Positions 25,648 through 27,902 of a stretch of DNA of 27,945 bases are shown piece by piece. Under the pieces are notes generated by a model. The model was not told the origin of the DNA. It did not search any database and saw nothing but the letters and a program-made list of their open reading frames with translations. Each line of letters begins with the position of its first letter. Within the stretch, counting starts at the first letter, position 1. Position numbers and translations under genes: made by a program. The DNA is from a virus: positions 1-27,945 of IMG/VR virus record IMGVR_UViG_3300025892_000114; one strand, written 5' to 3'.

Positions 25648-26412
25648 CTAGAACGGACGCGGTAGGCCAGTGCCTTGATCACGCCAAGATTGGTCAGACT
25701 GGTCAGTCAGCATAAAAGCGTGAACCGCCTTCTCAATAATCTGATAGGTGTAACCCTCATCCTTATATTTGCCGAATAACTTGCCGATGGCAGTCTTTGC
25801 ATATTCTTGCTGCTTATGGGTTAGTGTCCGACACTGAGATGCCGATTCCTGGCGATTTGAGCGTGATGGACGGGCTTTGGCCTCTTTCCGCACCCAACCC
25901 TGCCAAAATGCTCTACAAGAGGCGTATGCGGCTTTATTTCCGTTCTTTTCATTCCAGAGCGTGATATCGGTCAAAGTCTCTGACCAGTCAATGCCAAGTT
26001 CGGTTGCATATTGCTTATCAGCATCATCCGGTTGCCAATCCACTAAAAGCTGTTTTTTTGATTTCCCCTTATTATTTATTATAACGGTTCTATTATGGTT
26101 AGTGTGTCTGTGTGACACCTCTAGGGGTGTCTGTGTGACACCTGTCTGTGTGACACCCACCAAGTTCAAGCTGTATAAATCGGTCTTGTTAAACCGCTTT
26201 TGCCGTTGCAAGAATCCGCTAGTTTCAAGCATCTTTAATTTGCGTAGGACGGTGCTTCGGCTGGCGCAGGTCATCTGCTCAAGACGCTCGACACTAGGCC
26301 AAGCATCGCCGGTGCTTTCATTGATATGGTCAGCCACCGCTATCAGCACCAGCTTTGCCAGCGGGTCTTTTATCTGCTGGTCGAATGCCCAGCTAACTGC
26401 CTTTATGCTCAT
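25648..26412 (-). CDS. Replication initiator / helicase-loader-like protein (lambda O-like plan)
   Basis: 254 residues; AAGGGG lies eight bases before the ATG. Residues 1-85 are a winged-helix domain (LAKLVLIAVADHINESTGDA, WPSVERLEQMTCASRSTVLR, KLKMLETSGFLQR). This is the common start of phage replication proteins (HTH_36 / replication protein O type). Residues 85-107 are a polar linker encoded by three DNA repeats (see 26106-26157). The C-terminal half has VDWQPDDADKQYATELGIDW and AAYASCRAFWQGWVRKEAKA. These resemble the W-x-P...FW..W pattern of DnaT-like primosome domains. Likely role: bind the origin within its own gene and help load the host or phage helicase. It is coupled to the upstream gene (ATGA). 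The function is strongly suggested but not shown. Confidence 0.75.
   Translation of the reverse strand: MSIKAVSWAFDQQIKDPLAKLVLIAVADHINESTGDAWPSVERLEQMTCASRSTVLRKLKMLETSGFLQRQKRFNKTDLYSLNLVGVTQTGVTQTPLEVSHRHTNHNRTVIINNKGKSKKQLLVDWQPDDADKQYATELGIDWSETLTDITLWNEKNGNKAAYASCRAFWQGWVRKEAKARPSRSNRQESASQCRTLTHKQQEYAKTAIGKLFGKYKDEGYTYQIIEKAVHAFMLTDQSDQSWRDQGTGLPRPF
26051..26157. other. Putative replication origin: iterons plus AT-rich stretch
   Basis: Three iteron-like repeats at 26106-26157 adjoin an AT-rich tract at 26051-26100 with runs such as attatttattataacg. In the direction of the gene the repeats come first and the AT-rich part second, the same order as iterons and unwinding region in the lambda origin within O. 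No DnaA box was identified. Confidence 0.6.
26106..26157. repeat. Three 14-bp direct repeats (iteron-like)
   Basis: GTCTGTGTGACACC occurs exactly at 26106-26119, 26129-26142 and 26144-26157. Start-to-start distances are 23 and 15. Each contains GTGT-G/C-ACAC as an inverted repeat (GTGTCACAC on the gene strand). Between the first and second the sequence gacacctctaggggtgtc is nearly palindromic. Confidence 0.9.
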
Positions 26413-26759: not shown

Positions 26760-27203
26760 TTAAATATCCAGAATAGTAAACTTATCGACATCGTAATGAG
26801 CGACTATGCCATCATCCTGACTGTCGCCCCTGTCGAACCTGCCGCCATACTCAGCGGTGAATTGCTCGTTAAAGTCAATCGTTCCAAGCCGGTCTTTCCA
26901 TTGCACGGCTAGATAGCAAGGTATGCCGGTATTGCGTGTTAGGTCTCTGGCAGCCGTTGCCTTGTCCAGATTCACAAAACTGGTCTTGTATCGGTTCATC
27001 TCAAACGTGCGAACCTTTACCTCAAGAAAAAACCATATCTTCTTTGTCACCAACTTATGCACCGCAAAGTCCATTCGGTAGGTGAACGGTATCTTCTTGT
27101 AATCTGCCCCGATGTGGTTGCAGATGCGCTCTATAACATCGGTCTCATTCTGCAAGTGAAACTCGGTCTCATAGTCTGCACGGTTCTTTCGGTTGTATTC
27201 CAT
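26760..27203 (-). CDS. PD-(D/E)XK-type nuclease-like protein
   Basis: 147 residues; AGGGG lies six bases before the ATG. The region YRMDFAVHK (Asp 45) followed by WFFLEVKVRT (Glu 61 and Lys 63) gives the D-x(n)-E-x-K core of PD-(D/E)XK nucleases, with an alpha helix before it (TDVIERICNHIGADYKKIPF) and a helix after (LDKATAARDLTRNTGIPCYL). The final part has a beta hairpin. Which substrate it cuts (recombination junctions, host DNA, or none) cannot be told. Next to another nuclease pair at 27206-27902. Confidence 0.65.
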   Translation of the reverse strand: MEYNRKNRADYETEFHLQNETDVIERICNHIGADYKKIPFTYRMDFAVHKLVTKKIWFFLEVKVRTFEMNRYKTSFVNLDKATAARDLTRNTGIPCYLAVQWKDRLGTIDFNEQFTAEYGGRFDRGDSQDDGIVAHYDVDKFTILDI

Positions 27204-27205
27204 TA

Positions 27206-27517
27206 TTATCCCCTAAACTCATAATCCTGATTGTCAGATGTCTTTATCTTGTGACAGTTGGCACACAGTAGCTGATATACAGACCTAGGTTCCTGGCCAG
27301 CCTTTGCCATTGCATTAATGGTATTGGTGTTCTGTTGACCGTTCATCTTGACCTTGCCATTGGTTCTCCACTGTATTGGCGTAACGTGGTCAAACTCAAG
27401 CACACGGTAATCGTCCACACCGCATTGGCAACAAGCACCGCCAAGCGCGTCTATAGCAAGTTTCCTCATCTTGACCCTAGATTTACGCTGGGTTTCTCGC
27501 CGTCCTTTACTAGGCAT
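27206..27517 (-). CDS. HNH endonuclease
   Basis: 103 residues from the ATG at 27517. AGGGAG lies 10 bases before it, and the longer reading would fall inside the previous gene. The motifs are CCQCG (C29/C32), EFDHVTPI (D43, H44) and LLCANCHKIKT (C85, C88, H89). This gives C-x2-C ... DH ... C-x2-C-H, a zinc-bound beta-beta-alpha metal site. The N-terminus is basic (SKGRRETQRKSRVKMRK). Such small HNH enzymes are often found in phages, sometimes beside the terminase and needed for packaging cuts. Here it is in the replication module, so a homing or recombination role is as likely. Confidence 0.8.
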   Translation of the reverse strand: MPSKGRRETQRKSRVKMRKLAIDALGGACCQCGVDDYRVLEFDHVTPIQWRTNGKVKMNGQQNTNTINAMAKAGQEPRSVYQLLCANCHKIKTSDNQDYEFRG

Positions 27518-27902
27518 CTCCCCAACTCTCCCTGACCAGCATACACCAAGTCTCAAAGCTGACAGTCGCTAGGTCATCCTTGCCAGCAAAGTCAGCATTG
27601 ATGCTCGATAGACGGATAACGCACCGAATCGGATGCCGGTCATATTTGTAGATAAGCACCGGCTCAGTACCAGACGCATCACTGGCACGTTCCACCTGTG
27701 ACCACCATTCATCTTTGTGTGTCACGCCGTGAGCATACCTCTTTGCCTCGACAGTCCAACCGTCAATGCCAATCAGGTCGCCGTGGTCGCCAGCCCTATA
27801 TTGCTCTAGGTCTCGCTTGACATCATCAATGCCAAGTTCATCCATAGCCATACGAGCAAGTTCACGTTCAAAATTTGCTCCTTTTCTACGTCCGTTTGTC
27901 AC
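27510..27902 (-). CDS. PD-(D/E)XK nuclease, Holliday-junction-resolvase-like
   Basis: 130 residues from a GTG at 27902; GGGGAG lies eight bases before it. The N-terminus is NGRRKGANFERELARMAMDE, a pattern (KGxxFERELA) typical of phage nucleases of the Hjc or putative PDDEXK endonuclease type, with Glu 12 as the first acidic residue. Then GDHGDLIGIDGWTVEAKRYA gives Asp 42, Glu 52 and Lys 54. After it comes EWWSQVERASDASGTEPVLI, as in relatives where a helix and a last strand (PVLIYKYDRHP) follow. The start overlaps the previous stop (GTGA). Role inferred: resolve branched replication or recombination intermediates. Confidence 0.75.
   Translation of the reverse strand: MTNGRRKGANFERELARMAMDELGIDDVKRDLEQYRAGDHGDLIGIDGWTVEAKRYAHGVTHKDEWWSQVERASDASGTEPVLIYKYDRHPIRCVIRLSSINADFAGKDDLATVSFETWCMLVRESWGDA

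Follow-up and report, generated by a model that had tools for sequence, protein, structure and literature searches.

A candidate replication origin inside the HTH_36 initiator gene of a phage

Why would a phage carry the same short DNA word three times in the middle of a coding sequence, and read it in more than one frame? The question is raised by a 27,945-base virus record (the window, by which we mean this whole stretch of DNA), where the three copies lie within a gene whose product resembles replication initiators. Comparison with relatives suggests as the best reading a lambda-type intragenic origin, set in a protein family that has no sequence relation to lambda O.

The repeats, their gene and the adjoining tract

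The word GTCTGTGTGACACC is found without change at 26106-26119, 26129-26142 and 26144-26157, at spacings of 15 and 23 bp, and a search of the window allowing up to two mismatches returned no further copies. On the coding strand two copies translate as GVTQT and the third as VSHRH. The first-pass annotation had described just this, three exact 14-bp copies in the linker with two in one frame and the third in another. It had also seen an inverted repeat in each copy, which stands, as a 15-bp unit GTGTC(A)-N5-GACAC; the form it gave, GTGT-x-ACAC, is one arm overlapping the spacer and does not. The unit that emerges across relatives is 15 bp long, an inverted repeat of the form GTGTCA-NNN-[A/T]GACAC with 3-4 copies per gene, and in the window and the five related phage records searched GTGTCANNNWGACAC is confined to the initiator gene. 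The iterons of the window sit about 260-310 bp into that gene, between the parts for the DNA-binding and the C-terminal portions of the protein (Table 1).

Table 1. Features of the initiator gene and of the candidate origin within it
Feature	Position in window	Strand	Basis
Replication initiator gene, 254 aa	25648..26412	(-)	HTH_36 PF13730 E=2.3e-9; phrog_1032 E=1.3e-19
N-terminal winged helix-turn-helix domain, residues 1-82	26167..26412	(-)	AlphaFold2; Pfam HTH_36 residues 17-68
Recognition helix SRSTVLRKL, residues 51-59	26236..26262	(-)	Profile alignment to E. coli CRP and covariation with iterons
Disordered linker, residues 85-117, carrying the candidate origin	26062..26160	(-)	AlphaFold2 pLDDT <50
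Block nearly free of synonymous change, codons 84-115	26068..26163	(-)	13 relatives, Fisher p=7e-9
Iteron 1, GTGTC-ACACA-GACAG, right arm imperfect (one mismatch)	26142..26156	(-)	Repeat search, alignment of relatives
Iteron 2, GTGTC-ACACA-GACAC	26127..26141	(-)	Repeat search, alignment of relatives
Iteron 3, GTGTC-ACACA-GACAC, other reading frame	26104..26118	(-)	Repeat search, alignment of relatives
TAACC, first copy of second element	26097..26101	(-)	11-bp-spaced [TG]AAC[CA] array 3' of iterons, conserved across families
GAACC, second copy, 11 bp on	26086..26090	(-)	11-bp-spaced [TG]AAC[CA] array
Least stable 40-mer of gene (gene positions 330-369), probable DNA unwinding element	26044..26083	(-)	Nearest-neighbour stability
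Middle helical domain and C-terminal helical part, residues 121-254	25651..26052	(-)	AlphaFold2 helices 130-180, 199-245

The protein belongs to HTH_36 (37.4 bits against a gathering cut-off of 25), and among PHROG families it matches the replication initiation protein phrog_1032 as well as O-like families. An AlphaFold2 model of moderate quality (mean pLDDT 69, 14 sequences in the alignment) gives the N-terminal domain helices at residues 3-11, 17-28, 41-48 and 52-65 and wing strands at 68-73 and 77-82, and predicts disorder exactly where the iterons are encoded. By profile alignment the helix SRSTVLRKL is the equivalent of CRP residues 179-187 and pairs with the E. coli CRP helix GCSRETVGR. 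No Pfam family matched residues 121-254, a part shared with proteins that have a different N-terminal domain. Matches from a fold search with the model were weak and of a generic winged-helix kind throughout. They include plasmid initiators, such as the solved structures 4pt7 and 5kbj, which we take to be probable RepA_N members; a sequence search of solved structures gave generic HTH matches only. No relatives turned up in 84,980 bacterial and archaeal genomes.

Next to the repeats, the 60 bp that follow the last copy have an AT content of 75%, which no other 60-mer of the gene exceeds, and the least stable 40-mer lies beside the iterons, which bears out the AT-rich stretch noted at first pass. 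In each of the 15 genes examined the least stable 40-mer begins 3' of the last iteron, within about 20 bp, and in a few it overlaps the last iteron bases. Several of these genes are close relatives, so that the independent cases number fewer than 15.

Constraint on the block and its exchange between genes

No 14-mer of any sequence came up three times in 5000 synonymous-codon shuffles of the window gene, so the repeats are not forced by the peptide. Among 49 initiator genes tested, repeats exceed the codon-shuffle expectation in most HTH_36 members, and lambda O, taken as positive control, behaves likewise; it should be noted that many copies are spaced by 22 bp, a distance at which the reading frame cycles by itself. 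The identical 15-mer is translated as GVTQTP in 16 genes, as VSHRHT in 13 and as [TR]CHTDT in 3 (near-identical relatives counted). Among 13 close relatives, synonymous variation affects 47 of the 79 codons that precede the block and 81 of the 129 that follow it, as against 1 of the 18 codons in the iterons and 2 of the 15 in the flank; taken together this is 3 of 33 in the block versus 128 of 208 (∼60%) in the rest (Fisher p=7e-9). The drop over the block recurs in three other clades, four in all. The constrained block is longer than the repeats and extends into the AT-rich tract, and it likely marks the extent of the origin. Selection on DNA and not on peptide, as had been proposed, is thus upheld by relatives that keep the repeat as DNA while peptide and frame change. 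An alignment of relatives had been set beforehand as one of the checks, and it returned repeats kept and peptide not, the opposite of a linker peptide preserved without its repeats.

The sites change together with the helix that is expected to read them. In one clade (L017) the helix has changed from SRSTALRK to SRATVKRK, and each of the three iterons has a GGCTC core where GTGTC stood before; in a tree built without the helix this clade is still nested within the GTGTC clade. Among the initiators of a Pseudomonas phage family, those with SEST (GGGTGTCA) branch from within the S-x-R-T group (GGGTGCA). Within the window's own clade SRRT proteins always go with GTCAC in place of GACAC in two iterons. 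If both halves were read alike, one would not expect a change limited to two of three iterons and to their right halves, and this counts against the best explanation. A rule by which Ser goes with T and Arg with A or C agrees with 62 of 63 rows of the data on which it was formed, the one counterexample being Vibrio phage 14E30.1, but we claim no significance for it since there are only 4-5 changes, with two well-supported independent pairs. It also fits an out-of-sample set, though one drawn nearly entirely from the same lineages. The Pseudomonas-type initiators of the viral contigs L161 and L164 differ from L137 and L147 by GGGGTGCA to GGGGTGTCA in all iterons and by S-x-R-T to SEST in the helix.

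Three related genes (L013-L015) have the C-terminal part of the window protein behind an unrelated-looking N-terminal domain without such iterons. Compared with the window, their DNA is about 50-65% identical as far as the AT tract, nowhere above 75%, and >90% identical behind it. The same exchange of N-terminal domain and iterons is seen in relatives of phage C72C1, while L016-type genes keep the N-terminal domain and the iteron type and miss the middle domain. N-terminal domain, repeats and AT tract are thus swapped as one cassette in front of the same C-terminal part.

Some further details of the exchanges were noted. Both in L013-L015 relative to the window and in L081 and L084-L091 relative to L043, N-terminal domain and origin are replaced by a MSDSLIV.../MSKDELII... 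type, which often has its own repeats of 15-bp period, CCGTATACGGAAAA or CCGTTGACGGAAAA, and is followed by a C-terminal part up to 97% identical. There is also a second exchange point: beyond gene position 570 (window 25648-25840) DNA identity with L004 is about 0.7, compared with 0.98 before it, and so the last stretch of the C-terminal region is swapped too.

The origin model and its alternatives

Comparison of related genes allowed us to demonstrate the repeats, their selection at DNA level and their inheritance together with the N-terminal domain, as well as the unstable tract beside them and, for the records searched, the restriction of the site to this gene. We consider it very probable that 26044-26163 is the replication origin of the phage, placed within its own initiator gene, with a winged-helix domain that would bind the three iterons, an AT tract that would melt and a host helicase that would be recruited. 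The N-terminal domain would bind the 15-bp inverted repeats through the helix SRSTVLRKL, probably with one initiator dimer per iteron. Several initiator copies would then load side by side next to the AT-rich tract and cause it to melt, while the C-terminal helical part may help to bring in the replicative helicase of the host. Host recruitment is proposed because no DnaB-type helicase was found in the seven phage records examined. Two points speak against the model: the protein has no sequence relation to lambda O, and no lambda-P-like loader gene lies directly downstream of the initiator in the window, where the downstream genes run towards the initiator gene. GC skew of the 28-kb fragment is dominated by gene strand. 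The lambda-like plan first suggested for this locus gains support from DNA-level conservation in relatives and from the same signature in the lambda O control.

Other functions could be proposed for the repeats. HTH_36 domains look like those of transcription factors, and the profile matches CRP and SlyA helices, so the copies could be operators at which the HTH protein regulates its own transcription, or another regulator does so. We find this improbable, as the sites lie so far from the start of the gene, the 15-bp motif has no other occurrence in the window or the related records, not even on the promoter side of the gene, the constraint reaches the AT-rich flank and the protein families name the product a replication initiator. 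Hairpins in the mRNA, e.g. for translation control or as RNA sites, could form too, each iteron being an inverted repeat that could fold in RNA as well. This is very improbable given that several conserved copies have broken arms (GACAG in iteron 1 of the window, GTGTC/GTCAC in L002 and L008, GATAG in L021), that the unpaired AACC words and AT tract are constrained as well and that the repeats travel with the DNA-binding domain in cassette exchange. Selection for a repeated linker peptide, for which one could cite the frame that two of three copies share in the window and the three in-frame copies of relatives like L177, is still harder to believe when one DNA word yields three unrelated peptides, synonymous sites are frozen and the segment is predicted to be disordered. 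Equally remote is a block that serves mainly as a recombination site for swapping initiator modules: exchange junctions do fall directly after it, but the iterons differ between swapped cassettes and so are not the shared homology, which starts behind the AT tract.

The AACC array and comparison with known systems

Within the proposed origin, the AACC words at 11 bp, between iterons and AT tract, may form a second element. Many HTH_36 initiators have 2-4 words [T/G]AACC (or AACA) directly 3' of the iterons, mostly 11-12 bp apart; the array is seen at window 26086-26101 and in L103, L198, L199, L205, L207, L314 and L319, among others. Across 22 families the 60-bp flank contains 48 copies, against a mean of 25.5 and never more than 35 over 500 rounds of codon shuffling; the density is 36 per kb compared with 2.9 elsewhere in the genes. 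These families have 11 pairs at exactly 11 bp versus 0.8 in the shuffles. The word was derived from the same 22-family data and was retested on 14 further genes, which have 24 words against 15.4 expected (maximum 22 in 300 shuffles). Of six additional phages, four have three copies at the array position and two are without it. The array was not seen in lambda, and we found no published description of it in the open-access literature.

Phages with differing iterons have the AACC word in common, and unlike the iterons it does not change alongside the recognition helix. A second initiator binding site or a phased strand-opening element are our guesses for its role. As a tentative view, to which we give somewhat less than even weight, HTH_36 phage initiators may have a two-part intragenic origin. 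One part would be fast-changing iterons that track the recognition helix, where the residue aligned to CRP Glu181 is tied to one base, Ser being paired with GGTGT and Arg with either GGTGA or GGTGC. The other would be a conserved ∼11-bp [T/G]AACC array, shared by phages with differing iterons and hence read by something other than that helix, as an undescribed origin element common to phages of Proteobacteria and Actinobacteria.

An origin in the initiator gene, with inverted-repeat iterons mid-gene and an AT-rich tract 3' of them, is known from lambda and Stx phages (PMC7466680, PMC5043065). The lambda ori in gene O shares this order with the window. It has four iterons, compared with three here that are 15 bp long and spaced by 15 and 23 bp, and unlike lambda the window has the AACC array and no P gene behind the initiator. 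The initiators differ as well, that of the window being HTH_36 and not Phage_rep_O PF04492: at E 0.1 its protein gives no match to PF04492, which lambda O itself matches at 5.7e-36, and a profile comparison of the two proteins aligned no N-terminal domain. These comparisons support an initiator that would work as at the lambda origin without belonging to the lambda O sequence family.

Other systems share single aspects of the layout. In pSK41 Rep (RepA_N) the N-terminal domain binds boxes in the middle of rep, chimeras of such genes occur and the linker is not essential (PMC5703833). The central boxes are as in the window, but RepA_N is another sequence family, of a Gram-positive plasmid and not a phage; the window protein has no RepA_N Pfam match and weak fold similarity. 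In repABC replicons oriV lies inside repC with an AT-rich region, and silent mutations there destroy the origin (PMC3155836). RepC thus resembles the window in having its origin within the initiator gene, but has no iterons; a link to its N-terminal domain shows up below the Pfam cut-off, and then in relatives of the window protein only. In the PLE satellites of Vibrio cholerae the DNA-binding domain of RepA and the origin covary, and both are exchanged while the C-terminal part stays constant (PMC8263062). Covariation and swapping are like those described here, while the PLE origin is intergenic and the candidate of the window intragenic. For the HTH_36 phage family we found no published description of this layout in the open-access literature.

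Intragenic origins and initiator-origin covariation are already known, and the window adds to them a phage protein family, HTH_36, with this layout. HTH_36 is a very common initiator family, and to our knowledge few phages have mapped origins. With repeats in changing frames, frozen synonymous sites and an adjoining unstable tract as its signature, a candidate origin can be located with no more than sequence data. Since initiator and site lie in one gene and are swapped as one cassette, relatives constitute natural helix/site pairs in which a recognition code can be tested. The AACC array, if real, would be a second element common to these phages.

Outside the initiator gene two more observations were made in the window. 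Upstream of it, at 26760-27902, three probable nuclease genes stand in a row (PDDEXK_14, HNH and PDDEXK_15/RusA-like), and positions 2-1063 encode an open-ended 354-aa protein with many tandem glycine/asparagine-rich repeats (TTGxxNxxxG), which is probably tail-associated.
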